From: a virus
IMG/VR virus record: IMGVR_UViG_3300048835_000081
Span: 1 to 39,203 of that record
Length of the DNA stretch: 39,203 nucleotides
Strand: one strand, 5' to 3'
How positions within the stretch are numbered: position 1 is the first letter of the stretch; the number at the start of each line of letters is the position of its first letter. Of the stretch, positions 3,401-29,232 are shown piece after piece. A model generated the notes under the pieces. That model had not been told where the DNA came from, did not search any database, and saw nothing but the letters and a program-made list of their open reading frames with translations. The translations under genes were made by a program, and so were the position numbers.

Positions 3401-5468
3401 TCCTCGTGGCGTTAACAGGATTACTTCAATTACAAATTCAGCAAAGCCTACTACTGGAGTTACTCGTGAAGTTAGTTTTACTTGTAAAAAAGTATGGACG
3501 GAGTCTAATAGCAATATAAACACAGTTAATTGGTTGGTTGCAAATGCTACAACTCAGTATCACGCTGTTAATAAAGGTCAATTGGATGCAGCAATTTCAG
3601 GTATATCAATTGGAAATTACAAACTAAAATCCGACTCAACGGCTTCGGACGGATATGTAAGACGTGATAGATTGACTTCAAGTTTGGCAACTAAAGAAAA
3701 TGCCTTTTCAAAAAATACAGCCTTTAACAAAAATTTTGGAACAACCGCAGGAACAGTTTTAGAAGGTAGGACTTTTGGAACGGCTGCAAATAACAATACA
3801 GGTGATTTTGATGCATCAGGAACAGCAATCGGATTAATGACTACCCACCAAACAACTTATAATCATACGAACTATAACACTGCATACAATGATAAAATTA
3901 ATTCTTTGGCTGTTACCGGAACAACTACAAAGACAATCACACTAACACAGCAAGACGGGGGAATAGTTTCAAATACTTTTGCCGATTTAGATAATCAAAA
4001 TTTATCAAAAAGTAAAACTGGAAATAATATAACGGTTAATATTTCAGGCGGTTCAGGAACTACATTTAGCGTTGCCGATGCTGATAGCTCTAAAACAAAT
4101 GAGATTCAGGATTTATCATTAATCGGAAATACACTTTCATTAAGTCAATCAGTTGCAACTATTGATTTAACGCCTTACACCGATGCAAACTGGACAGATG
4201 AAGGGACTTATTTAGTTCCTACCAGTTTAGAAAATATCAAAATTGAAAATGGGATGCCAACTTTGAAATTTTTAGATACTGGTTATCCGTCAAGATTTTT
4301 TAATATAAATATGAATACTGATAAATTATTCCTTACTTATTTTGATGGAACTGTAAGTTATTCGCACGACTTTGACAGATACGGATTGAACACTGGACAA
4401 TTAAAATTATACAATTCCGGCTATCAGGACATTGACGGTTCAATTAGATATGATGGAAGCGATTTATTAGGCAGAACTGGTGGAACATGGAAAAGCCTTA
4501 CAAGTTCAGGATGGACTAATTCAAGTGGGGCATTATATCCAACAACAATTACAGATGAGGTTCGTATTGGTTCTGCTACTGATTTAGGTAGTGAAAAATT
4601 GCAAGTTTCTGGAAATGCAAAAGTAACAGGTTCTTTAACTTCGCTAACTTCAACAGTTGACGGCAATATTAATTTAGGTAACTTTATAAGGTTTTCAGAG
4701 ATTGGCGCACCGTCAACACCGCCGTCAAGTTACGGATATTTATACGAAAAAACTGATAGTAAATTATATTTTAAAAATGATTTGGGAGTTGAATATGATT
4801 TGACAAGTTCAGGTTCATCGTACACATTACCTTTAGCTGCAAATGGAACAAGGGGAGGTTTGCAAATAGGATATACTTCAACTGCAAATAATTTTGCTTT
4901 GCAATTAAGTTCAGAAAAGGCATTTACAGCACTGCCAGATGCGACACCAAGCGTAAAAGGTATTGCAAGTTTTAATACTTCAAATTTTTCAACTTCTTCC
5001 GGTGCAGTTAGTATTAAAACAGGCGGAGTTTCAAGCGCAAATATTGCAGACAAAGGCGCAAACACTCAGGTACTTTTTAATAATTCAGGCACTATTTCAG
5101 GTGATGCAGACCTTACATTTGATGGTACTAACATAACAGTTGGCGGATATGTTTCAAGCGATGAAAATAGAGTACAGTCAAGCGTTGTAACTACAATGAA
5201 TATGCAAAGTGGAATGAAAGGGATATCTACAACTTTAACAGCTAATAGAAATATTGAATTAATTAATTTATTTGACGGGCAAGAGGGTCAGATAGAAGTT
5301 TTTCAAAATGCAACAGGTGGGTGGAACTTAACACTTTCTGGTTATATGTTAACAGCTAAAAAAATGGGGTCAAAGTCAACGATTAATCCTGCTGCAAGTT
5401 CACACACAACAGTAGTTTTCTGGAGAACAGGTTCTGTACTTTATTATGGATTTATTTATGATAACTAA
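414..5468 (+). CDS. Large mosaic tail fibre / receptor-binding protein, 1684 aa
   Basis: The longest gene. It opens with a hydrophobic signal peptide-like segment ending in SFGQ (residues 1-19). Around 200-226 and again at 841-867 there is a duplicated block with a GFVKA(S/N)GT core. Residues about 255-315 resemble a pyocin-knob/fibre-tip fold (G-L-H-W-Y start, W-N-D-W end). Around 381 a VGIGT..P..KLDV motif begins, typical of Bacteroidota fibres and surface proteins. Residues about 539-640 match the widespread fibre domain with TIDGY.VSAGQRVLVKNQ and NGVYVV. NEIQ...GN.L.LS...TIDL repeats follow twice, along with a NADLLDGY motif. The C-terminus (about 1590-1684) is a compact beta domain ending LYYGFIYDN. 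It probably forms a long trimeric fibre that sets host range. Confidence 0.85.
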   Translation: MKKLITAIFFFICLASFGQEDEYYRLVDWKFYPDSVYQLTDSTYIFKADPIDYTDPGAINRTIGNYVVDYVGHRFLVIDSSSTTITVEDVYRTGQAPQSLQIARCYKSVGNGKADFVGSVDYSPLDESSKWKLNGADNELLWREIQSGSYANHPDLTNLGWTTSGHSDGSSKIAAFDAVGAATTLDTITNLASQYDLTLKQSQLNGTGFVKASGTTISYDNSSYLNKTITTNPDYNTLTTPVWGRNNSTSIANAPTAGLHWYISGGNNDAMSSLGGQLALGYSTTGGGYQQAKLYMRSKSSSSTWNDWIEAYTTNNANLTSVNWSSNINNSLQYNLNGTNINTAGTLTNVAYKGALTTNYLVKYDGTRLGNSQISDNGTNVGIGTVSPLFKLDVRGNTNTYQGTSAITSIIANSTNASGYHALKLTTANNSRNTRLLYGESAGNVVYSVRGDGTTLIGTDTDNTVDKLQVSGSILGTTAKLTNLTDNFIPIHKSDALGFENSRLFFSGNIVRYSDANTFSNARDIVDKAYVDAIASGNMPKLPVDAATTTNITLSGTQTIDGYAVSAGQRVLVKNQSTASQNGVYVVAAGAWSRATDLDTWTELYKAYVAVLNGGQSGASYVCNIASTGTLGTDAITWVLYSAPTNIIAGDGILKTGNIISADYGGTGTATTLSRSDHTQAASTITSPGNLTAGSSKITIGGTGTGATLQNVSVDVDEANLTLSSLGGSVTDSQVPNDITLTNITQITNRSHTNLSDIGTNTHAQIDTHITNDGDLSATNEIQKVDTFSIVGNQLQLSLQNDGEAKKTIDLSAYVNPDLSGYQQNSDTLGFDATKYDLSFKQDKLNGNGFVKANGTAISYDNTEYLALSGGTMSNNNLVNNLNADLLDGYNYTSFIPYSVYSYTSGILIATDISSTSDAMFTFVVDGNGYNGEKFQINAQGYNYNSANLITRYKGNSINYNSPIYYFNYNGFVYIWLSEFSSFQTFNASVISGNSSPRGVNRITSITNSAKPTTGVTREVSFTCKKVWTESNSNINTVNWLVANATTQYHAVNKGQLDAAISGISIGNYKLKSDSTASDGYVRRDRLTSSLATKENAFSKNTAFNKNFGTTAGTVLEGRTFGTAANNNTGDFDASGTAIGLMTTHQTTYNHTNYNTAYNDKINSLAVTGTTTKTITLTQQDGGIVSNTFADLDNQNLSKSKTGNNITVNISGGSGTTFSVADADSSKTNEIQDLSLIGNTLSLSQSVATIDLTPYTDANWTDEGTYLVPTSLENIKIENGMPTLKFLDTGYPSRFFNINMNTDKLFLTYFDGTVSYSHDFDRYGLNTGQLKLYNSGYQDIDGSIRYDGSDLLGRTGGTWKSLTSSGWTNSSGALYPTTITDEVRIGSATDLGSEKLQVSGNAKVTGSLTSLTSTVDGNINLGNFIRFSEIGAPSTPPSSYGYLYEKTDSKLYFKNDLGVEYDLTSSGSSYTLPLAANGTRGGLQIGYTSTANNFALQLSSEKAFTALPDATPSVKGIASFNTSNFSTSSGAVSIKTGGVSSANIADKGANTQVLFNNSGTISGDADLTFDGTNITVGGYVSSDENRVQSSVVTTMNMQSGMKGISTTLTANRNIELINLFDGQEGQIEVFQNATGGWNLTLSGYMLTAKKMGSKSTINPAASSHTTVVFWRTGSVLYYGFIYDN

Positions 5469-12083: not shown

Positions 12084-12681
12084 ATTCGATATTCAGCAAA
12101 ATACAGAGCAATGGTTAGCTATTAAGGTTGGGAAGTTTTCAGCCTCAATAGCAGCCGATTTGCTGATGGATAAAAAAACTTCTGGTTATACAAATCTGAT
12201 TGAAAAGATTGTTGAAGAACGGATAACAGGAATGCCAACTGAAAGTAAAACATTTTCTGGTAATTCATATACCGACAGAGGTCACGAATTTGAACCAGTT
12301 GCCCGCGAAGATTATGAGTTCAGAAGTTTTAATGACGTTGTTCAGGTCGGAGTTGTTGAACTTGATGACTGGTGTTTGTGTTCGCCTGATGGATTGATTG
12401 GAGAAAACGGATTGATTCAAATCAAATGCCCGATATTCAAAACTCAAAAGGAATATCTGAAAACTAAAAAAGTACCTGGTAATTATTACAAGCAGATGCA
12501 ATTCGAATTGTTTGTTACAGGACGTGAATACAATATATTCTATTCATATCATCCTTTTTTGCCCGCTGTTGAAATTAAAGTTGAACGAGATGAGATAATG
12601 ATAGCCGAAATACAGAGGCGGTTAAATGAGGCTAAAAATGAGGTTGATACGGAAATTGAATTTTTAAAGTCAATAAAATGA
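12070..12681 (+). CDS. YqaJ/lambda-type 5'-3' exonuclease with Q in the E-x-K motif
   Basis: 203 residues, the usual size for YqaJ-like recombinases. Visible motifs: N-terminal QWLAIKVGKFSAS (family R/K-x-G-x-x-(S/T)AS), RGHEFEPVAREDY, then SPDGLI with the metal ligand Asp107 and LIQIKCP with Lys119. In the lambda exonuclease family the position two before that Lys is normally Glu; here it is Gln117. The Q-M-x-F-E-L helix also fits. It would resect DNA ends for the annealing protein upstream. Whether it is active with Gln is open. Confidence 0.85.
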   Translation: MPQYRFDIQQNTEQWLAIKVGKFSASIAADLLMDKKTSGYTNLIEKIVEERITGMPTESKTFSGNSYTDRGHEFEPVAREDYEFRSFNDVVQVGVVELDDWCLCSPDGLIGENGLIQIKCPIFKTQKEYLKTKKVPGNYYKQMQFELFVTGREYNIFYSYHPFLPAVEIKVERDEIMIAEIQRRLNEAKNEVDTEIEFLKSIK

Positions 12682-13103
12682 TTTTCAATTTAAGCAATAA
12701 ATACGGGAAAGAAAATGCAGCAACTGAATTTAATCGATTGAATGAAGTTGCTGCAACTATTGAACTGAAAGCGGTTAAAATGACACGGAGTTCAGCTCAG
12801 AACAGAGCCTTATGGTTATTCTTTCAAATGTGCAGCGATGCTTTAAATAATGCCGGAATTTATCATACTTATACTTTTGTTGACGGAAATGTCATGCAGA
12901 TTGAATGGACTAAAGAAATGTTTAAACAGTATTGGTGGTATCCTATTCAATTAGCCATGTATGAAACTACTTCAACAACAAAATTAAAAAGAAATCAAAT
13001 AGACCCTATTTTAAATTCAATATTTGAGTTGTTTGGTAGGATTGGAATATCTGTTACATTTCCTAATAATTTCGATATGTATCTAAAAATGTTTGAAAAA
13101 TAA
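12678..13103 (+). CDS. NinB/Orf-like recombination protein
   Basis: 141 residues. The RSSAQNRALWLFFQMCSDAL helix, a W-T-K-E-x-F-K-x-Y-W-W-x-P-I-Q segment, STTKLKRNQID and a C-terminal IGISVTFP motif resemble a family common in phages beside recombination genes and sometimes labelled NinB-like. NinB (Orf) proteins help load recombinases on SSB-coated DNA. It overlaps the exonuclease stop by 4 bases, supporting a role in the same pathway. The assignment is by pattern only. Confidence 0.65.
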   Translation: MIFNLSNKYGKENAATEFNRLNEVAATIELKAVKMTRSSAQNRALWLFFQMCSDALNNAGIYHTYTFVDGNVMQIEWTKEMFKQYWWYPIQLAMYETTSTTKLKRNQIDPILNSIFELFGRIGISVTFPNNFDMYLKMFEK

Positions 13104-13107
13104 ATAT

Positions 13108-13115
13108 TATCTTTG
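13108..13115 (+). promoter_or_regulatory. Promoter -7 element before the first HNH gene (TATCTTTG)
   Basis: A TAnnTTTG match just after the stop of the previous gene and directly before a structured leader. A TTTG at 13092-13095 is too close to be a normal -33 element. Confidence 0.45.
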
Positions 13116-13186
13116 GATTGCCTTACCTGGAAGTAATTAGCCGGGGACAGAGTGAAGCGATTACACTTTGGCAATTCTTTTTTAAT
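13116..13186 (+). ncRNA. Structured leader upstream of HNH gene 1
   Basis: The putative transcript can close with ATTGCC (13117-13122) paired to GGCAAT (13070 + 100 to 13175), i.e. 13170-13175, extendable by a G-T pair, followed by TCTTTTTT. Inside it GTAAT (13133-13137) pairs with ATTAC (13160-13164), and AGTG (13151-13154) can instead pair with CACT (13064 + 100), i.e. 13164-13167. The T-run makes the closing stem look like a terminator/attenuator before the HNH ORF. It is GC-richer than its surroundings. No known RNA family recognised. Confidence 0.45.
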
Positions 13187-13192
13187 CGCATA

Positions 13193-13453
13193 ATGAAAAA
13201 CCACACTAAAATATATCTCAATCATTTCGGATACACAACAGCCGATTTTATCCCGTGTGAAGTGTGCAAATCACAGGCTATTGATATTCACCATATAGAA
13301 GCCAGGGGAATGGGTGGCAGCAAGTCAAAAGATACGATTGAGAACTTAATGGCACTATGTAGAAATTGTCATGAAAAATTTGGAGACAAAAAACAGTACA
13401 AAGATTATTTAAAATCAATACACAAAAAAGTGTTGATAAACGTTGTTAATTAA
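13193..13453 (+). CDS. HNH endonuclease 1 (small, zinc-finger type)
   Basis: 86 residues from the ATG at 13193; the frame is open to a TTG at 13118 but that would run through the structured leader. Motifs: CEVC (22-25) and CRNCH (56-60) as the zinc-binding pairs, DIHHIEARGMGG with the HH pair at 33-34, and Asn51 in ENLMALC. This is a complete minimal HNH nuclease. Such genes occur in phages as packaging partners or homing nucleases; being far from the terminase and having its own promoter, this one looks more like a homing-type or accessory gene. Confidence 0.85.
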   Translation: MKNHTKIYLNHFGYTTADFIPCEVCKSQAIDIHHIEARGMGGSKSKDTIENLMALCRNCHEKFGDKKQYKDYLKSIHKKVLINVVN

Positions 13454-13464
13454 AAAGTTTATAT

Positions 13465-13472
13465 TACATTTG
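13465..13472 (+). promoter_or_regulatory. Promoter of the helicase-methyltransferase operon (TACATTTG)
   Basis: A perfect TAnnTTTG with a TTG at 13443-13445, spacing 19 bases, matching the Bacteroidota -33/-7 layout. It lies 21 bases before the helicase ATG. Confidence 0.6.
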
Positions 13473-13492
13473 GTAAAATTTAAAACGACATT

Positions 13493-14857
13493 ATGAATTA
13501 TCAAGAATTTTTAGAGACAAAAAAACATTCAACTAACGACTATGGAATTAGTCCGACATTTATACCGGATAAAATGTTTGACTTCCAAAAATACGTTACT
13601 GAATATTTATGCAAAAAAGGCCGGGCGGCTTGCTTTCTGGATACCGGATTGGGTAAAACAATCATTGAGTTATCTGTTGCAGTAAACTACATTAAGCACA
13701 CTAACAAACCTGTTTTAATTATCACTCCCTTAGCCGTTGCTTTCCAGTTTATAAAAGAAGCTGAAAAATTCGGTATTGATGATATCAGTTATTCAAAGGA
13801 TGGAAAGTACAAAACTAAAATCGTTATCTGCAATTATGAAAGATTGGAACATTTTGATTCAATTGATTTCGATTGCGTTATTCTCGATGAAAGCAGTATT
13901 TTAAAAAACTTTGACGGTGCAATCAAACAACATGTGACCTCATTTTTAAAAAAAGTAAAATATCGGTTTTTGTTTACAGCAACGCCTTCGCCAAATGATT
14001 TTATTGAACTTGGAACCAGCTCTGAGGCTTTGGGATATTTGGGTTATATGGAAATGTTAAGGCAATTTTTTGGCAACAATGAAAACAACATTAGACCACA
14101 GGAAATTGCTTGCAAATGGTATTTAAAACCACACGCAAAAGAAGATTTTTTTAAATGGGTTTCAGGATGGAGTATATCAATGAAAAAACCTTCTGACTTA
14201 GGATTTGACGATACAAAGTTTATTTTACCTGAATTGAAATTGAATTACAACTATGTCAAGAACGATAAAAACTGGATTGTAAACAATCAAATAATGATGT
14301 TCGGAAATATAGCCAAAACGATGACAGAGGTTAGAGATGAACAAAGAATGACAATTGAAAACCGTTGTAATAAAGCTGTTGAATTAGCATCAAATCACGG
14401 AACTTCTGTTTATTGGTGTAATTTTAATGACGAGGGTGAACTCTTGCAACAGCTTGATAAGTCAGCTTATCAGATTAAGGGTTCGATGGATTTGGATAAA
14501 AAAGAAGACATTCTCTTAAACTTTGCAAACGGAAATATTAAAAAGCTGATTACAAAGCCGAAAATGACTGCATTCGGTTTGAATTGGCAACATTGCAATC
14601 ATACTGTTTATTTTCCGACATGGAGTTATGAACAATACTATCAGGCAATAAGGAGGTTCTGGAGGTTCGGTCAGCAAAAAGAAGTTATTGTTGATTTAGT
14701 TTTGTCAGACGGACAGAAAAGGGTTATTGATGCTTTATTGCTTAAAACTGAAAAAGCAATTGAATTATTTGATTTGCTTAACCTGAATTTACACAAACAT
14801 TTAGAACTTTCAAAAACAGAATTTACAAAAGAAATTATTAAACCAAAATTTATTTAA
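13493..14857 (+). CDS. SNF2-type superfamily 2 DNA helicase/translocase
   Basis: 454 residues. Helicase motifs in order: FDFQ (29-32), Walker A DTGLGKT (50-56), motif II as DESS (132-135), motif III TATPSPND (162-169), and motif VI QAIRRFWRFGQ (384-394), typical of SNF2-like proteins. It is compact, near the minimal two RecA-like domains, with about 50 extra C-terminal residues. It is followed after 2 bases by a DNA methyltransferase, a pairing that I have seen in phages of several hosts. It probably moves along double-stranded DNA to support methylation, replication or anti-restriction; the exact job is not shown by the sequence. Confidence 0.85.
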   Translation: MNYQEFLETKKHSTNDYGISPTFIPDKMFDFQKYVTEYLCKKGRAACFLDTGLGKTIIELSVAVNYIKHTNKPVLIITPLAVAFQFIKEAEKFGIDDISYSKDGKYKTKIVICNYERLEHFDSIDFDCVILDESSILKNFDGAIKQHVTSFLKKVKYRFLFTATPSPNDFIELGTSSEALGYLGYMEMLRQFFGNNENNIRPQEIACKWYLKPHAKEDFFKWVSGWSISMKKPSDLGFDDTKFILPELKLNYNYVKNDKNWIVNNQIMMFGNIAKTMTEVRDEQRMTIENRCNKAVELASNHGTSVYWCNFNDEGELLQQLDKSAYQIKGSMDLDKKEDILLNFANGNIKKLITKPKMTAFGLNWQHCNHTVYFPTWSYEQYYQAIRRFWRFGQQKEVIVDLVLSDGQKRVIDALLLKTEKAIELFDLLNLNLHKHLELSKTEFTKEIIKPKFI

Positions 14858-18431: not shown

Positions 18432-19099
18432 TGAAAGACCCTGCATTTTTATTTTATTCAGATAATTTCCTTTCTGGGACAATGTTTTTTAATGATGAGC
18501 AAACCGGAAAATATATTCGTTTGCTTTGCGCCCAACACCAAACCGGACATTTAGAAGAAAAACATATGATTTTCATATGCAAAGGATATGACGAAGATAT
18601 ATTTAAAAAGTTCATTAAAGATGAATCAGGTAAATACTTTAATGAACGACTTGAAAGCGAAATAATAAAACGTAGAAACTACTCTGAAAGCCGCAGTAAC
18701 AACAAGAAAGGAAAAACAAAACAAATAAATAATACTAAAATCATATCAAAATCATATGATAATCATATGGGAAATGGAAATGGAATAGGAAATATAAATA
18801 TTGATTTTAATTCTTTTTGGGATTTGTATGATAAAAAAGTTGGTGCAAAAAATAAATGTGAAAAGAAGTGGAATAAGTTAAAATTTGAAGTACAAAAAAA
18901 CATTATTGATATTTTGCCGAATTGGAAAAGTCAATTCACAGATAAACAATTTCAACCTTTTCCTGAAACATTCTTAAATCAAGAAAGATGGAACGATGAA
19001 ATAACTAAAAAAACTGAAACAAATGGAAAAACTATCTCAGATATTGAAAGAGAAAAAATGGTCAGCCGGATTAAAGTTTTCACAAGTCCAGACAATTGA
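18431..19099 (+). CDS. Replication initiator / replisome organiser-like protein
   Basis: 222 residues. The N-terminal 90 residues resemble the DUF1376/replisome-organiser winged helix: PAFLFYSDNFLSGTMFFNDEQTG...RLLCAQHQTGHL. A low-complexity, Asn- and Lys-rich linker follows (about 90-130). The C-terminal domain begins FWDLYDKKVG and has W..LK and PETFLNQERW, typical of phage replication proteins that precede a helicase loader. It probably binds the origin and hands over to the loader gene, which overlaps it by 77 bases. Confidence 0.75.
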   Translation: MKDPAFLFYSDNFLSGTMFFNDEQTGKYIRLLCAQHQTGHLEEKHMIFICKGYDEDIFKKFIKDESGKYFNERLESEIIKRRNYSESRSNNKKGKTKQINNTKIISKSYDNHMGNGNGIGNINIDFNSFWDLYDKKVGAKNKCEKKWNKLKFEVQKNIIDILPNWKSQFTDKQFQPFPETFLNQERWNDEITKKTETNGKTISDIEREKMVSRIKVFTSPDN

Positions 19100-19706
19100 T
19101 TTTTCAGAAAATGAAAGTTTGATAAAAAATACATTTATGAAATCAGGTAAAAATTTAATTGGCGAAAAATTCACTGTGCTAAAATGCCAATCTTCAATAA
19201 TTACTGAACTATTAAAATATTTTACCGGAAACCAGTGTATTTATGACTTGAATAAAGGAATTTATTTGTTTGGCATATTTGGGATAGGAAAATCAATGTT
19301 ATTTGAAATAATCAGGAAAACAATTTCAGATTTGGCAAAATTTGATGAATTCGGCAAAAAAATTAATCCAAACGGATTTTTAATAACAAGTTCAGAGCAA
19401 ATAATTGAAACTTATAAACATGACGGAAATCTGGATTATTACGGGTATAGAAAAGAATCAGTTCCTATTGATTTATTGATAAATGAATTTGGTAAAAAGT
19501 TAAATGATAAGATTTATGGTACGGATGCAAACGAGCTTTTAAATTCACTTTTTATGATTAGATATGAATTATTTCAGCGTGGAATTTTAACGCACGTTAC
19601 TTCAAATAGTCATCCTGATAAACTTGATTTGCAGCCTATTTTACTTGAAAGGGCTATTGAAATGTTTAACTTTGTTGAATTGAATGGAGAAAGTTTTAGA
19701 AAATAA
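19023..19706 (+). CDS. DnaC-like helicase loader ATPase
   Basis: 227 residues. Walker A GIFGIGKS (84-91), a sensor I-like TSN (193-195) and the terminal LLERAIEMFNFVELNGESFR, with arginine 210 in the arginine-finger position, match DnaC/DnaI loaders. In the Walker B position the sequence is LLINEFG (NE at 154-155), where the family usually has an Asp before the second acidic residue. It would load the host replicative helicase at the phage origin, since no phage helicase of the DnaB type is encoded. The 77-base overlap with the initiator gene is large but no closer Met exists. Confidence 0.8.
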   Translation: MEKLSQILKEKKWSAGLKFSQVQTIDFSENESLIKNTFMKSGKNLIGEKFTVLKCQSSIITELLKYFTGNQCIYDLNKGIYLFGIFGIGKSMLFEIIRKTISDLAKFDEFGKKINPNGFLITSSEQIIETYKHDGNLDYYGYRKESVPIDLLINEFGKKLNDKIYGTDANELLNSLFMIRYELFQRGILTHVTSNSHPDKLDLQPILLERAIEMFNFVELNGESFRK

Positions 19707-19713
19707 CGTTTTG

Positions 19714-19721
19714 TATATTTG
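19714..19721 (+). promoter_or_regulatory. Promoter -7 element before the candidate RNA (TATATTTG)
   Basis: A TAnnTTTG match 8 bases after the helicase loader stop. A TTTT near 19694 is a weak -33 candidate. It could drive the structured RNA that follows and the gene at 20023. Confidence 0.5.
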
Positions 19722-19912
19722 CGTCTGTGCGGTAATTAAGACGACTATGCCGAAATGCCTAAGCAGACTGGTAGAGCCGCAAAAGTTCAAGGTTTTTAAC
19801 CTTGCCCGCATAGCGCAAGACAGTAGCAGCCCTAAATAGAATGTTCGGCAGGTGTACAACTGATAGCGTAACCGAACTTAAACAGAGGTGCGATTCTGTT
19901 CGGCTGCTATTT
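19722..19912 (+). ncRNA. Candidate structured RNA with tRNA-like parts
   Basis: A GC-rich stretch in an AT-rich genome with many pairings. 3' domain: a 7-bp closing stem AGCAGCC (19825-19831) with GGCTGCT (19902-19908) encloses two 6-bp hairpins, GTTCGG/CCGAAC (19843-19848, 19872-19877) and AACAGA/TCTGTT (19881-19886, 19895-19900). 5' domain: CAAGG/CCTTG around a 7-base TTTTTAA loop (19788-19804) looks like an anticodon arm, after an ACTGGTAGAGC that resembles a D-loop; TGCGG (19728-19732) can pair with CCGCA (19806-19810). GCCGAA (19749-19754) could alternatively pair with TTCGGC (19899-19904). It does not fold as a normal tRNA by hand. Confidence 0.5.
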
Positions 19913-20008
19913 CTTATAACGTGATGCAGCTAACGTCCTCGGTATATGAAAAGTGGCGACAAAAACCAAAACAGATTATTAAATGAACAACAATAGTTTT
20001 TTAAAATT

Positions 20009-20022
20009 TTAGGGAGGGATTT
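20009..20022 (+). promoter_or_regulatory. Strong Shine-Dalgarno site before the DUF2786-like gene
   Basis: AGGGAGGG (about 20010-20017) lies 5 bases before the ATG at 20023. Nearly all other starts in this genome have A-rich leaders without such a site, as expected in Bacteroidota, so this is unusual here. Confidence 0.65.
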
Positions 20023-20571
20023 ATGAGCAAATACATTGAACTTGGAAGAAAATTAAAAGCACTTGCAGAACGTGGGGTTGGTGGTGAAAAATTGAATGCT
20101 GAAAAGATGCTTAGTAATCTACTTAAAAAGCACAACCTGACAATTGCAGATATTGAAGGAGAAAAAACAGACAATTACTTTTTTAAACTGAAAGAAAGTG
20201 AACACCAGTTATGGCATCAGATTGTGAAATCTGTAAATGTTGATATAAAATGCTATGGTGAATTTCCTAAAAAAGATATTAAAAGGCTTGAACTTAAAGG
20301 TAATTATTGCATTCAATCAACACTTTCTGAATATATTGAAATTGAGGCAAAATTTAGTATTTACAACCCGCTTTATCAGGAAGAATTGAACGTATTTTAT
20401 CATGCTTTTTGTACTGCTAATAATTTGGGTATAACGCCAAAAACCCCGATTTCCATTGATGATTTAAGCGTTGACGAACTTAAAACCTACAAAAGAGTGC
20501 TTGAAATGTCTCAGAATATTAAAAGCAAACATTACCGGAAGCAACTAAGCAAATCTAATACTGCTAACTAA
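20023..20571 (+). CDS. DUF2786-like protein
   Basis: 182 residues. Residues 1-45 match the DUF2786 N-terminal pattern: LGRKLKALAERGVGGEKLNAEKML, then LLKKHNLTIADIEGE. The remainder is a mixed alpha/beta domain with DIKRLELKGNYCIQ strands and a helical C-terminus. DUF2786 proteins are found in phages and bacteria, and their role is unknown to me. It is the first gene of the 20-22 kb island and is not coupled to its neighbours. Confidence 0.7.
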   Translation: MSKYIELGRKLKALAERGVGGEKLNAEKMLSNLLKKHNLTIADIEGEKTDNYFFKLKESEHQLWHQIVKSVNVDIKCYGEFPKKDIKRLELKGNYCIQSTLSEYIEIEAKFSIYNPLYQEELNVFYHAFCTANNLGITPKTPISIDDLSVDELKTYKRVLEMSQNIKSKHYRKQLSKSNTAN

Positions 20572-20679
20572 TTCCTAAAAGTTTTGAAAAAACTTATGCG
20601 CGCGGGCAAAATTTTAAAAAACGGTGCAAACCACAAAAGCTGATTAAATGTACACACTAAGCCATTTTTTATATACCGT

Positions 20680-20758
20680 GTTACCAAACGTGCCAACTTC
20701 AAAAAAGCACAGAGGTAACAGGTTAGGCGAAATGTTCTTTATTGGCATGTTTGGTAAC
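20680..20758. repeat. Inverted repeat A (17-bp arms, one mismatch)
   Basis: GTTACCAAACGTGCCAA (20680-20696) is the inverse of TTGGCATGTTTGGTAAC (20742-20758) except at one position. The 45-base loop contains GGTAACAGGTTAGGCG, whose GTTAGGC matches the integron core pattern GTTRRRY, though no integrase is present. Confidence 0.8.
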
Positions 20759-20763
20759 GTCCG

Positions 20764-20841
20764 AGTGCTTGGCATTCGTGCCGCCTTGCACTTACTTTAA
20801 GATTAGGCACGCTGTTTCTTGGCGGCATGATGCTAAGCACT
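20764..20841. repeat. Inverted repeat B (about 21-bp imperfect arms)
   Basis: The left arm 20764-20785 (AGTGCTTGGCAT...GTGCCGCC) pairs with the right arm 20821-20841 (GGCGGCATGATGCTAAGCACT) with a few mismatches and one bulge. It immediately follows repeat A and ends at a GTTACCG (20843-20849). Confidence 0.75.
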
Positions 20842-20883
20842 TGTTACCGCCAGTATTTTGATAAACATTTAAAAATTAACGAT

Positions 20884-21072
20884 ATGTCAATGACTAAACA
20901 AGAAATTAAACAGGAAGCTAATAGACTTCGCAAAAAGGCTGATGAATGCGAATATTACGCAACTACATTAACCCACGAACATCAAAAGTCAATGAAAGCT
21001 GAACTGGAAGCAAAAGCCAGAGAACTTCGGGAACTTCAAAAAGAGTATGAACGCCTTTCTTATATGCGGTAA
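20884..21072 (+). CDS. Small coiled-coil protein, 62 aa
   Basis: Helical throughout, with charged heptads (KQEIKQEANRLRKKADECEYYA and KAELEAKARELRELQKEY). The ATG at 20884 follows an A-rich leader; the frame is open upstream into the inverted-repeat region and I do not use that part. Its stop TAA is embedded in CGGTAACGG, followed at once by a hairpin. Function unknown. Confidence 0.55.
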   Translation: MSMTKQEIKQEANRLRKKADECEYYATTLTHEHQKSMKAELEAKARELRELQKEYERLSYMR

Positions 21073-21077
21073 CGGTT

Positions 21078-21097
21078 TGCCACTTTGCGTAGTGGCA
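21078..21097. repeat. Hairpin after the coiled-coil gene
   Basis: TGCCACT (21078-21084) pairs perfectly with AGTGGCA (21091-21097) around TTGCGT. It directly follows the stop codon and a CGGTAAC motif. No T-run follows, so it is not a typical terminator. Confidence 0.7.
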
Positions 21098-21223
21098 GAT
21101 TAGAAGCACAAAATTTCAAACTAAAACGAATGTTAAATATAAATACAAACCTTGAAGATACCACCGAAACTGCCATTACGCAAAATGGCTGTTATCGGAT
21201 GGGCTTCTGCAAATCTTAATCAT

Positions 21224-21475
21224 ATGGAAAATCAAATTTATAGGGTACAGTTGACAGACGAAAGCAATTTAGAGTTTTACGTTTGCTCAACAAATGAAGT
21301 CAATCCACACCGTAATATAAAAGAGTTAGGTGTGTGTGTTTTAGGTAAAGTCATTCAATTAGATGGTGATTTAAACATGAGTGAATTGGATTCACTTATT
21401 TCTTATTTACAAGATTGTCGGGAATATATCAAAGAGTATAATGAAAATTCCAAACCTTCGGAGGTTGTTTCTTAG
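21224..21475 (+). CDS. Hypothetical protein, 83 aa
   Basis: I use the ATG at 21224 (MENQIYRVQLTDE). The frame is open back to 21152 but that part runs through a hairpin (GCCATT/AATGGC near 21172-21189). The protein is acidic, with beta-rich sequence then a helix (SELDSLISYLQDCREYIKEYN). No family recognised. It ends in a region with a small AACCT-TCGG-AGGTT hairpin inside the last codons (21453-21466). Confidence 0.55.
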   Translation: MENQIYRVQLTDESNLEFYVCSTNEVNPHRNIKELGVCVLGKVIQLDGDLNMSELDSLISYLQDCREYIKEYNENSKPSEVVS

Positions 21476-21479
21476 CCTT

Positions 21480-21511
21480 GCCGACGGACAGATGTTTGTT
21501 GTCGGTTTTTT
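21480..21511 (+). terminator. Rho-independent terminator
   Basis: CCGAC (21481-21485) pairs with GTCGG (21501-21505) around a 15-base loop, followed by TTTTTT (21506-21511). It lies just after the 83-aa gene, so the next gene needs its own promoter or read-through. Confidence 0.6.
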
Positions 21512-21534
21512 ACGAATTTGAAAAACAAAAGTAT

Positions 21535-21831
21535 ATGAATGAAAAACAACAGGTGATTAAATGCTTAGAGCAATTTGACACTAAACAAGAGAAGGTAAGC
21601 CAAGTATTATTTAATGTCTATCCTGCGGAGATGAACGCTTTGGTGCGGTTAGTAAAAAACTGCAATAAACATAGTGTCACCAACCGTAATTTAGCCTATA
21701 AGGTAATGCTCCGAAATTGTGGCGCAATTAACAATGCCGATGGAACTTACACAATACAGGAAGCCGAATTAAAGGCGTGGTTTGAAAATGGCGACCACCT
21801 TAAACAATATACTGACTATGATTTATTGTAA
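21535..21831 (+). CDS. Hypothetical protein, 98 aa
   Basis: Start at ATG 21535, after the terminator; the upstream extension would be read from the hairpin. A helical protein with LEQFDTKQEKVSQVLFNVYPAEMNALVRLV and a C-terminal acidic segment (AWFENGDHLKQYTDYDLL). Several Cys (30s, 40s and 70s) are spread through it. No family recognised. The stop is followed by TAACGG (21841-21846). Confidence 0.55.
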   Translation: MNEKQQVIKCLEQFDTKQEKVSQVLFNVYPAEMNALVRLVKNCNKHSVTNRNLAYKVMLRNCGAINNADGTYTIQEAELKAWFENGDHLKQYTDYDLL

Positions 21832-21943
21832 TTATGGTTGTAACGGGCCGCGTGCATGAACTGAACGCTGTTCGAGTACTCACAGACTTTGATACGAGAA
21901 ATAACCGCTCCTGTTTATGTGCGGGGGCATAACACTAAATAAA

Positions 21944-22225
21944 ATGATTACAAGCAAGACAATTAAGTACGGTCAATTATTAGACTGGCAAAAAGAGAAA
22001 GGCGTAATTGCCACAAGCGTAAAAGCACACTTCTTTAATGAGAAAGGCGTATTAGTTGGCAGAGACTACAAATTTGTGCCATACGATGAGCTGACCGCCC
22101 ACAATGGGAAAACGATGTGGGAAATGAGCCGACTTTGTAAGCCTTTCGGCAAATTACGCCAATGGTTTTACGAAACGAAATGCAAGGTTACAACTGTATT
22201 AATACGAGCAACACAACCTGTTTAG
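21944..22225 (+). CDS. Hypothetical protein, 93 aa
   Basis: Start at ATG 21944, behind an AACACTAAATAAA leader; an upstream in-frame ATG at 21917 lies in a GC-rich patch and is less likely. The protein is basic, with KYGQLLDWQKEKG, an F-F-N-E-K-G-V-L-V-G beta hairpin and WEMSRLCKPFGKLRQWFY. No family recognised. The 112 bases before it contain no gene and no clear promoter. Confidence 0.5.
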   Translation: MITSKTIKYGQLLDWQKEKGVIATSVKAHFFNEKGVLVGRDYKFVPYDELTAHNGKTMWEMSRLCKPFGKLRQWFYETKCKVTTVLIRATQPV

Positions 22226-22420
22226 TGCGGTTTGGAATCGTTAATACGAAGCTGAGCGTTTTGTTTATGCACGTTGTTACCGTGTCGTTGCTTCCTTTTT
22301 AAAGGCCGCGACGTTCAAAGATTGCTACTAATTAATTTTAGAGCAATTCACTTGAACACGTTTATATATGTAATAAAACTATATATAAAATGAATAAACC
22401 AATTGATTTACAATTTTGAT
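22226..22420. other. Gap at the right edge of the accessory island
   Basis: 195 bases without a gene that I can support. The left half has a GTTACCG (22276-22282) and a GC-rich GGCCGCGACG patch; the right half is AT-rich, with repeated TATATA. A 9-codon ORF (22390-22419) ends one base before the next ATG and could be a leader peptide, but is too short to call. Confidence 0.5.
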
Positions 22421-24032: not shown

Positions 24033-24635
24033 ATGGCTTACTCAGGAAAAGAAAATATCCAATACACCCGCGAAGAACTTGAAGCAAAGTTAACTGGAAA
24101 AGAACGCCGTTTTTGTGAAGAATATGTGATTGATTGGAACGGTGCAAGGTCTGCAAGGGTAGCAGGATATAGCGAAAATTCAGCAAAGGAAATTGCATCT
24201 GAAAACTTAACAAAGCCTAACATAAAGCAATATATTGAAATAATCAAAAACGACATTGAAAGATTATCGGGAGTTTCAAAACTTCGCAATATTCAGGAAC
24301 TATCTAAAATAGCTTATTCAAGTGTAGAACATATTCACAATACTTGGATTGAGTTAAAAGATTGGGAACTTATTAAAGAAGATAATCCGGTTATTTTGGC
24401 GGCAATTGAAAGTATTGATACTAAAGTTGAAACACGGAAAGTCAATGTAAGTGAAGATACCGACATTGACGTTGAAGTAAAATATGTTAAGGTTAAATTC
24501 TTTTCAAAAATAGCTGCAATAACGGAGATTAATAAAATGATGGGTTATAATCAACCAGATAAAATTCAATTTTCTGGAATTGCAACACAAACACCAACTT
24601 TTATTTTCTCAGATTTGAACCCGAAAAATGAATGA
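24033..24635 (+). CDS. terS: Terminase small subunit
   Basis: 200 residues. The N-terminal half has the Terminase_2 helix-turn-helix: LTGKERRFCEEYVIDWNGARSARVAGYSENSAKEIASENL (about 20-59), followed by a helical oligomerisation segment and an acidic beta-rich C-terminal part that would bind the large subunit. It recognises phage DNA to begin packaging. The gene overlaps the large subunit by 8 bases. Confidence 0.9.
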   Translation: MAYSGKENIQYTREELEAKLTGKERRFCEEYVIDWNGARSARVAGYSENSAKEIASENLTKPNIKQYIEIIKNDIERLSGVSKLRNIQELSKIAYSSVEHIHNTWIELKDWELIKEDNPVILAAIESIDTKVETRKVNVSEDTDIDVEVKYVKVKFFSKIAAITEINKMMGYNQPDKIQFSGIATQTPTFIFSDLNPKNE

Positions 24636-27993: not shown

Positions 27994-29232
27994 ATGAAAA
28001 AAGAAGATTTTCTTAAGATTGTAAGGTCAAAATCTACAAAAGACCTAACAGAACAGGAACTTTCTTTTTTGGGTTCGATTGGTGAAGCGGTCGAAGGAGC
28101 TTTTCAGGCTGATTCAGTGACCCGAAAGAAAGAGATTGAAGACCTGACAGGAATGTTGGGAACTTTTGATAATGGCGAAAGTGCCGCAAAAGTTATCCGG
28201 TCATTGGCTGCAAAAGTTGATGAAATTGAAGCAAGGGCAAAACGCGGATTCAGCAACGAAGAAAAGTACAAACTTCGTACTTTACTTGAAGGCAAAAAAG
28301 ATGAGATTCAGCGTGCAATGAAAGGTGGCGCACCGTGGGAAATTGAATTTAAAGCTAAAAGAGCTGCCAGTGCTTTAATGACAACTGCAACTGTTTTATC
28401 AGGCGCAAGTGCTGTAAATACTACAAACCTGTTTGATGACATGGATATTGCAGTTTTCCGCTATCCTGCAAATTTCATTATTGACGTTATCGGTGGCGTT
28501 CAGGTTTCAAAAGTTCCTCAGACTTGGCAATGGAAAGAGGAAGGAACAGCAGGTGATGGAGTTCCTACTGTTGTAAGTGAAGGCGCAGCTAAGCCATTAG
28601 TTGATAAAAAATTCATCTGGAAATATGCAACACGCAAAAAGTTTGCAGGACGTGTTGAAATGACCGAAGAAGTTGAAATTGACTTTGAACAGCTTGTAAT
28701 GGATATTACAGCAATGTTTGAAAGGGACGTTATAATCGCTTGGCAAGATTCAGTCTTGGCTGAGATTATCGCATGGGTTCCTGCCTACACAGCAACAGCT
28801 TTGGACGGTACAATAGTTAATCCAACAGTTTACAGTTGCATTGGAGCTTTGAAATTAGCAGTTCAGGTACAGAACTATGAGCCAGACGTTGTATTTTTAA
28901 ATCCGGGTGATGCAGCCGAAGCAATTTATTTGCAGGACAATAGCGGCAATCAGCAGTTTATTCCGGCTGAATTACAGTATGGCGGTTTGCGCCCGATTGT
29001 ATCAAACAAAATTACTGCCGGAACATTGATTGTTGGTTCAAGTCGTTTGATTCAGGAGAAACACTCTAATTTCATTTTACGCAAAGGCGTTCACGGCGAC
29101 CAATTCATCGAAAATGAAAGCACTATTGTTGGTGAAGTTTTCAGTAACTTGAAACTTGCAACTGAATACAAAAAAGGTTGGTGCCAGGGAAGTATTGCAG
29201 TTTTAAAAGCTGCTTTACAGAAAGGAGTTTAA
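27994..29232 (+). CDS. Major capsid protein (HK97 fold, with N-terminal delta domain)
   Basis: 412 residues. The first about 120 form a charged helical scaffold domain (EDLTGMLGTF, AAKVDEIEARAKRGF). The cut site probably lies near KAKRAASALMTTATV. The rest shows HK97 features: VSKVPQTWQWKEEG, the FAGRVEMTEEVEIDFEQL spine-helix region, a P-domain and a C-terminal strand with GWCQGSIAVLKA. It follows the protease by one base. No separate scaffold gene is present, as expected with a delta domain. Confidence 0.92.
   Translation: MKKEDFLKIVRSKSTKDLTEQELSFLGSIGEAVEGAFQADSVTRKKEIEDLTGMLGTFDNGESAAKVIRSLAAKVDEIEARAKRGFSNEEKYKLRTLLEGKKDEIQRAMKGGAPWEIEFKAKRAASALMTTATVLSGASAVNTTNLFDDMDIAVFRYPANFIIDVIGGVQVSKVPQTWQWKEEGTAGDGVPTVVSEGAAKPLVDKKFIWKYATRKKFAGRVEMTEEVEIDFEQLVMDITAMFERDVIIAWQDSVLAEIIAWVPAYTATALDGTIVNPTVYSCIGALKLAVQVQNYEPDVVFLNPGDAAEAIYLQDNSGNQQFIPAELQYGGLRPIVSNKITAGTLIVGSSRLIQEKHSNFILRKGVHGDQFIENESTIVGEVFSNLKLATEYKKGWCQGSIAVLKAALQKGV

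Follow-up and report, generated by a model that had tools for sequence, protein, structure and literature searches.

A probable recombinase-less array of integron-like cassettes in a Bacteroidota phage, with the same site family in Bacteroidota genomes

We analyzed a stretch of 39,203 nucleotides of viral DNA (IMG/VR record IMGVR_UViG_3300048835_000081, positions 1 to 39,203; here called the window), in which an island of five small genes lies at about positions 19700 to 22400. This island is very probably a short, partly decayed array of integron-like cassettes that resides in a Bacteroidota phage and has no recombinase of its own. Its genes look like swappable cassettes, since they are separated by folded recombination sites that resemble the attC sites of integrons. 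The observations that carry this reading are (i) the structure of the sites and its covariation, (ii) the matched ends of cassettes and, in two cases, the limits of the unit, (iii) the association of sites and recombinase genes across genomes, and (iv) the family and the position of the enzyme.

The sites share a stem pattern that consists of TAAC, a short unpaired stretch, helix 1, a mismatch, helix 2, a loop, and return strands ending in GTTA. Four such sites, named A to D, were called in the window (Table 1), using our own stem scanner and our own covariance model in place of IntegronFinder. The region of site B (20750-20850, plus strand) folds with a z score of -5.57, and none of 200 shuffled sequences folded as well. 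The two longest inverted repeats of the region are at 20680-20758 (17 nt, 94%) and 21079-21189 (23 nt, 87%). The first joins the R' end of site A to the R'' end of site B, lies in a segment (20676-20760) with fold z scores of -3.5 and -3.95, and represents, judged by its pairing, both ends of one short cassette. Similarly, R'' of site C (GCGGTAAC) complements R' of site B (GTTACCGC) in an 8-bp match, and ends are thus matched from A to B and from B to C. Sites A and D are split, with a whole gene between their arms. In site A, 16 of 18 arm bases pair; site D is the best long-range stem of the window (score of 15), and these two are the only long-range TAACG..GTTA stems in the window that score at least 12.5. 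The segments 21835-21945 and 22225-22310 are unremarkable when each is folded alone, and we take their arms to form one stem that spans a gene. Clusters of attC sites lacking integrases (CALINs) are defined by at least two attC-like sites close together; sites B and C are 0.2 kb apart, and the split sites A and D adjoin them.

The site family was captured in a covariance model, R1, which was built from eight phage sites and includes no sequence of the window. RNAalifold predicted no pairs on the first MAFFT alignment, and the structure of R1 was therefore drawn by hand on a better-aligned subset. Over 849 kb, R1 produced 29 matches at an E value of ≤1, nearly all of them within arrays. Among 134 sites from 29 chosen sources, 92.7% of the cells were paired, versus 63.5% after shuffling and 29 to 48% after sliding, and 709 compensatory double changes were counted, versus 216 in shuffled data; this alignment was fitted to the model, which favors its structure, and the effect size is far beyond the controls. 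The sources include 17 genome stretches chosen mostly for having both signals on one contig, and counts on them do not represent a random sample. They enter the counts on site structure, end complementarity, attI-like motifs, start codons, and repeats, whereas the genome-wide counts of sites, IntI, and recombinases and the proximity count are independent of this choice. Of the 80 genome loci, eight (L068 to L075) were searched with R1, with matches in L069 and L075, and the remainder were covered by the stem scanner only. The ends of the core are close to invariant, with AAC in 134 of 134 sites and no fewer than 131 for any base of GTT; core bases almost always read YAAC and GTTR, and the loops measure from about 30 to 700 bases. 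In the phage arrays, 13 of 28 sites contain a frame of at least 50 codons that runs from an ATG in the loop across the GTT core (0 in the reverse-strand control). Nine of these 13 frames are in phase 0 with GTT, and a cassette swap would therefore keep the reading frame. Short open frames within attC that aid translation are known in other integrons (PMC8876359, accessible text). A start codon in every attC loop was discarded as a general rule, since it fails in chromosomal arrays (6 of 101 sites, with 5 in the control).

The same sites recur in phages related by their terminase. Phage contig L007 (terminase 73% identical) shows the stem pattern at 282-405, 919-1042, 1604-1690, and 1974-2061, between consecutive small genes, and a tyrosine recombinase gene adjoins. 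Three attC-like sites precede the terminase gene in L020 (64%), three are present in L002 (82%), and nine are present in record G012 (L010, 52%). The enzyme of L007, which itself lies beside an array, was then the query in a search for phage recombinases. Among the seven other loci obtained, R1 sites were found in L014, L016, and L017, which add further arrays, and none in L012, L013, L015, and L018; the record of L012 has one R1 site elsewhere, and L015 overlaps L016 at 99.98%. Reading by eye, the L016 array continues into portal-like, protease-like, and capsid-like genes. The cassette genes of L007 (336-914 and 1055-1594) include a Dam-like adenine methyltransferase, and one cassette gene of this contig, which matched no family, resembles an HD-type phosphohydrolase on visual inspection. 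L006 (1-370, compared with L007 at 3604) opens with a CRISPR array (repeat GTTTCAATTCCACTTTGGTACGATTGGTAG) that switches at its last repeat into sequence 99.98% identical to phage L007. The assembler was probably misled here by a spacer that the host holds against the phage, in which case the repeat could name the host.

An integron cassette has complementary ends, since circularization is what completes its site. Over 98 cassettes, R' of a site and R'' of the next matched in 7.95 bases on average, versus 3.96 in mismatched pairs. Complementarity of at least 7 bp was present in 71 of these cassettes, with 27 falling short, versus 4.4% of mismatched pairs; the phage subset gave 15 of 21, and none of 5,000 permutations was as high overall. 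Information on the limits of the mobile unit comes from two cases. (i) A 378-bp cassette is common to L075, a contig of a Bacteroidales metagenome-assembled genome, and phage record G012 (89% identity). It starts at the AAC of the site that precedes the gene and runs to the TAACG of the next site, and its flanks are unrelated; the upstream sites have an identity of 0.90 and the next sites one of 0.70 (random mean, 0.63; 95% limit, 0.75). (ii) A 517-bp unit duplicated within L193 has the same limits. Because of these limits, the mobile unit is most likely one site together with the gene on its 3' side, with its borders at the AAC/GTT core. A repeat in L200 had been considered as a gene-then-site unit and was rejected: its near-identity lies outside the site, its two sites differ, and it is a separate repeated element. 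The first-pass annotation of the window, made from sequence alone, held that the same genes in the same order in relatives would speak against cassettes. The relatives instead vary in gene content: along 7 kb at 99.9% identity, L002 and L005/L003 diverge in a single unit, of 413 versus 276 bases, directly after the helicase loader gene and with a left break at CATAAC.

In the mechanism that we propose, a unit would be excised and inserted by a tyrosine recombinase that acts on the folded single strand. The enzyme would be a close relative of the integron integrase, IntI, without the IntI-specific insert; genes for it are present on integron-like platforms of Bacteroidota genomes and in several of the related phages (L007, L014, L016, and L017). 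The window, which encodes none, would depend on recombinase supplied in trans. For the enzyme of L007, the best match is NF040815 (XerA/"integron integrase") with 203 bits (cutoff of 220), and TIGR02249 gives 151 of the 265 bits required. All ten array-linked enzymes scanned had NF040815, a XerA-like family, as their top NCBIfam match (168 to 248 bits); with TIGR02249 they reach 123 to 221 bits. These enzymes lack the IntI-specific insert and are some 40 residues shorter: the distance from the catalytic-lysine motif to HxLRH is 60 to 66 residues, versus 107 in eight Bacteroidota IntI proteins, as obtained by a simple motif search in which the value of 30 for L014 is a mis-hit and several enzymes gave none. 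In a tree holding samples of IntI, XerC, XerD, and XerA-like enzymes, IntI and the array-linked enzymes stand together on one side of a branch with 100/100 support, away from XerC and XerD of Bacteroidota and from the other XerA-like enzymes. IntI forms a single clade on a long branch, and the tree, being midpoint rooted, shows no direction. The short recombinase is likely the enzyme that recombines these sites, and we infer that the window's own sites may still be active. Chromosomal recombinases (e.g., L185, 8693-9769) have an N-terminal extension of about 80 residues (..RIAVYF..WSSSQGYWHLPD..) that is absent in the phage enzymes and that, in L185, has no Pfam match of its own.

R1 (E value of ≤1e-4, strict filters) detected the site family in 133 of 296 Bacteroidota genomes and in none of 200 Pseudomonadota and 199 Bacillota genomes, with phyla taken from the named center genomes; the family as found here thus appears restricted to Bacteroidota and their phages. 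The recombinase (E value of ≤1e-85) was present in 88 of the 296 genomes and IntI (TIGR02249 over cutoff) in 84. Sites and recombinase are strongly associated (contingency table of 74, 59, 14, and 149; odds ratio, 13.3; P = 3e-19), and there is no positive association of sites with IntI (29, 104, 55, and 108; odds ratio, 0.55). Among the 105 recombinase rows listed, 29 are at most 30 kb from one of the 150 sites listed, versus 1.9 expected on a rough assumption of 4 Mb; this count repeats an earlier one that had used six recombinase rows picked because they matched. The figures bear on the possibility that the island is an ordinary CALIN, i.e., that its sites are normal attC sites mobilized in trans by an IntI of the host and that the neighboring Xer-like recombinases are incidental. 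IntI1 indeed recombined five of six attC sites tested from three other virulent phages (PMC9892861, accessible text), IntI is present in 84 of the 296 genomes, and the YAAC and GTTR cores are compatible with it. The association, however, is with the other recombinase and not with IntI, and strict integron boxes are rarely present (GTTRRRY in 7 and RYYYAAC in 8 of the 134 sites). We consider this account possible, if doubtful.

At the chromosomal arrays, the recombinase gene is at the 3' end of the array in 28 of 29 cases, with 24 genes facing the array from the opposite strand and 4 sharing its strand; in phage arrays it is also at the 3' end and shares the strand of the array. One array, G005, is that of the cultured marine strain Mesonia aquimarina. 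Just ahead of the recombinase gene, R'' of the last cassette is joined to a recurrent sequence. This is AACTACTATATGTA in L015, L016, L017, and L075, a TATAG..CCAAT..-like block before the recombinase in L012 and L014 (less clear in L007), and AACT[CT]GTTTATA in the chromosomal arrays L185, L188, L189, L190, and L196, with close variants in L195 (AACTTATTTATATG) and L186 (AACTCACTTATATATG). That search did not show a motif of the last type in L193, L199, L194, L172, and L187, and no attI-like motif was found in the window. We read the recurrent motif beside the recombinase as a putative equivalent of attI. Followed from this motif, the order is recombinase, fixed site, and genes that point back to the recombinase, each then with an attC-like site; the polarity of recombination would accordingly be classical, with inverted open reading frames. 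On a wider view, which we hold with about even confidence, a second integron-like system, overlooked by standard tools, may be common to Bacteroidota and their phages. It would consist of the recombinase nearest to IntI among those seen here, without the insert, and an attI-like site at the 3' end of inverted cassettes (site, then gene); phages would carry arrays and sometimes the recombinase and would exchange cassettes with chromosomes, and these enzymes could be similar to the precursor state of IntI.

Repeats of other kinds also occur in the chromosomal arrays. L184 contains near-identical copies of an IS110-family element at 307-1541, 12801-14035, and 19583-19901, and in two of them the start falls at an identical point within the 3' arm of an attC-like site; its repeats are this element and were rejected as units. 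IS110-family insertions are found at one position of two sites in G072. The copies in L184 are like the IS1111-attC elements of integrons. In L187, a near-identical segment of about 127 bases occurs five times (2360-2487, 3617-3744, 5073-5200, 12597-12724, and 14722-14849), with four copies immediately preceding an R1 site and the fifth preceding the recombinase gene; it may be another type of site that has become joined to the attC-like type.

Several results weigh against reading the island as a cassette array. (i) The window has no recombinase (no TIGR02249 match and none with a recombinase profile), and 59 of the 133 site-bearing genomes have no recombinase match at 1e-85. (ii) Sites A, B, and D were not reported by R1 at an E value of ≤1. 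(iii) The best long-range stem of shuffled windows scored at least 13 in 20 of 60 cases and at least 15 in 3 of 60; since shuffled windows reach their scores, sites A and D are not secure individually. The argument for these split sites is that both are in the island and both end at hexamers described below, and in 20 other array loci a threshold of 15 gave one long-range stem. (iv) R' of site C (GTTATCGG) has, by eye, no match to R'' of site D (GTTGTAAC). (v) Only two pairs of units, L075/G012 and L193, are informative on boundaries. (vi) The right break of the L002/L005 swap is at the conserved start of a gene, and this swap could therefore be homologous recombination. The last point, together with the split and half sites of the window, would also fit phage mosaicism, in which the sites are passive remnants and units are moved by homologous or illegitimate recombination at repeated hairpins. 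Self-complementary unit ends and sharp breaks at AAC with unrelated flanks are nevertheless what site-specific excision, and not homology, leads one to expect, and we judge mosaicism unlikely. A further account, immobile regulatory hairpins such as transcription terminators lying between small accessory genes, would agree with sites near stop codons and with the strength of some hairpins, but the loop lengths (some 30 to 700 bases), the AAC..GTT ends that hardly vary, the matching of unit ends, and the unit that phage and bacterium share led us to reject it as the whole explanation, which is very improbable.

The first-pass annotation had pointed to a hexamer, GTTACC/GGTAAC, which is indeed present at 20680, 20714, 20753, 20843, 21068, and 22276, i.e., 6 of the 10 copies in the window are in the 2.7-kb island. 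The total for the whole window is ordinary (10 versus 10.6 expected), and the clustering exceeds chance (binomial P of 2e-5 for this stretch; scan P of 0.0012 for any 2.7-kb stretch); an equal density elsewhere, named there as a sign against cassettes, was not found, the density being higher in the island than in the rest of the window. With the exception of 20714, the hexamers of the island are for the most part the paired ends of the attC-like sites, which are long imperfect palindromes. The octamer TAACGTCC was correctly placed at 19931 and 20755, and a third copy at 28725 had been missed (3 copies in the window versus 0.56 expected). The five genes and their gaps exist as described, with 316, 312, 151, 59, and 112 bases before the genes and 195 after the last. 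The claim that each gap has a GTTACC-like or TAACGG-like site holds generally, the 59-base gap (21476-21534) having none. That the gaps are full of hairpins is borne out at 20750-20850 and 20676-20760 and weakly at 21066-21200 (z scores of -2.5 and -2.0); the other stretches are not significant by local folding. The central proposal of gene cassettes joined at shared recombination sites gains support from site structure, model search, self-complementary ends, and related loci, and the suggested origin as a patch from a bacterial island was partly right, in that the site family is common in Bacteroidota genomes. Two features went beyond what had been expected, namely, a recombinase that is not of the IntI type and the reversed order of gene and site.

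A helicase-loader-like gene (19023-19706; weak AFG1/DnaC-like matches) precedes the island and the terminase block follows it, in a virus record with a 127-base end repeat. Family matches place the start of a terminase subunit gene at 24033, and a second subunit gene, assigned via its relatives, starts at 24628; the closest terminases among annotated phages are from Olleya, Nonlabens, Riemerella, and other Bacteroidota phages. The stop codon of the 62-amino-acid (62-aa) cassette gene is the TAA in the TAAC of site C. The L016 counterpart of the 98-aa gene can start within an attC-like site, and a viral scan with the 93-aa gene found no relative. tRNA and Rfam searches of the island gave no matches, and neither did a distant DNA search against annotated phages. 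The segment 19707-19915 contains a TTTG..TATATTTGC stretch, which we take to be of the Bacteroidota promoter type, and then about 165 noncoding bases with the paired segments TAGCAGCC/GGCTGCTA and GCCGAA/TTCGGC. A tRNA at the start of the island (19740-19915), suggested by eye, was dismissed, there being no tRNA or Rfam match and a fold z score of only -1.4 for 19707-19915.

Table 1. attC-like sites and genes of the island
Feature	Position	Strand	Description
TAACGTGATGCAGC	19917..19930	+	Read from sequence; begins like L016 site 746-871; probably the leftover 5' arm of a further attC-like site
attC-like site A, split	19931..20683	+	5' arm 19931-19953 (TAAC, then CGGTATATGAAAAGTGGC); 3' arm ends in GTTA at 20683
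182-aa gene	20023..20571	+	Between the arms of site A; phrog_421 match (function not annotated)
Site A R' GTTACCAAACGTGCCAA and site B R'' TTGGCATGTTTGGTAAC	20680..20758	+	Complementary; 17 nt, 94%
attC-like site B	20755..20846	+	Short-loop type, TAAC...GTTA; stem scanner score, 15.5
62-aa cassette gene	20884..21072	+	Frame open back to ATGs 20827/20830 within site B
attC-like site C	21070..21194	+	Long-loop type; R1, 105 bits, E value of 2e-19
83-aa cassette gene	21224..21475	+	Frame open back to ATG 21185 within site C
98-aa gene	21535..21831	+	C-terminal 47 residues 66% identical to an L016 cassette gene
attC-like site D, split	21841..22279	+	5' arm TAAC..CGTGCATGAACTGAACGCT; 3' arm AGCGTTTTGTTTATGCACG..GTTA; whole gene between
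93-aa gene	21944..22225	+	Between the arms of site D

Virulent phages that lack an integrase, among them the Bacteroidota phage P12002L of Polaribacter, are known to carry clusters of attC-like sites with small genes (PMC9892861, accessible text). The window resembles these phage CALINs in its site cluster, its small genes, and the lack of an integron integrase nearby (no TIGR02249 match in the record); it differs in that several of its relatives encode a recombinase themselves, and this enzyme is not IntI. The present site family had no match in P12002L, Olleya phage Harreka_1, and Polaribacter phage Leef_1, the latter two searched in part. With chromosomal integrons, the system shares a recombinase by a putative fixed attI-like site, a cassette array, attC-like folds, R'/R'' complementarity within the unit, and IS110-family insertions. 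It differs from them in that (i) the recombinase lacks the IntI insert and the canonical R boxes are mostly absent, (ii) the genes point to the recombinase end, and (iii) the unit is most likely a site with its downstream gene, the two informative pairs showing site, then gene, in place of the hallmark order of gene, then attC. A nonstandard orientation of recombinase and array is also a feature of the reverse integrons of Treponema (PMC3607928, accessible text); compared with what that text describes, the chromosomal recombinases here are mostly head-on to the array (24 of 29), and the genes read toward the recombinase. Archaeal integrons keep the IntI domain, according to the accessible part of PMC9668308. 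We found no description of the present arrangement in the open-license literature, preprints excluded, and it may have been described elsewhere. Phage attC clusters are thus known, and the present platform appears to be a new variant.

In the accessible text of its report, IntegronFinder 2.0 lists a single complete integron in Bacteroidetes proper, in Salinibacter (PMC9024848), which contrasts with the sites in 133 of 296 genomes here. If the wider view is true, a large and so far unrecognized route of gene exchange would connect Bacteroidota and their phages. There would also be living relatives of IntI without the extra domain, which would make the evolution of single-strand recombination from Xer enzymes directly testable.

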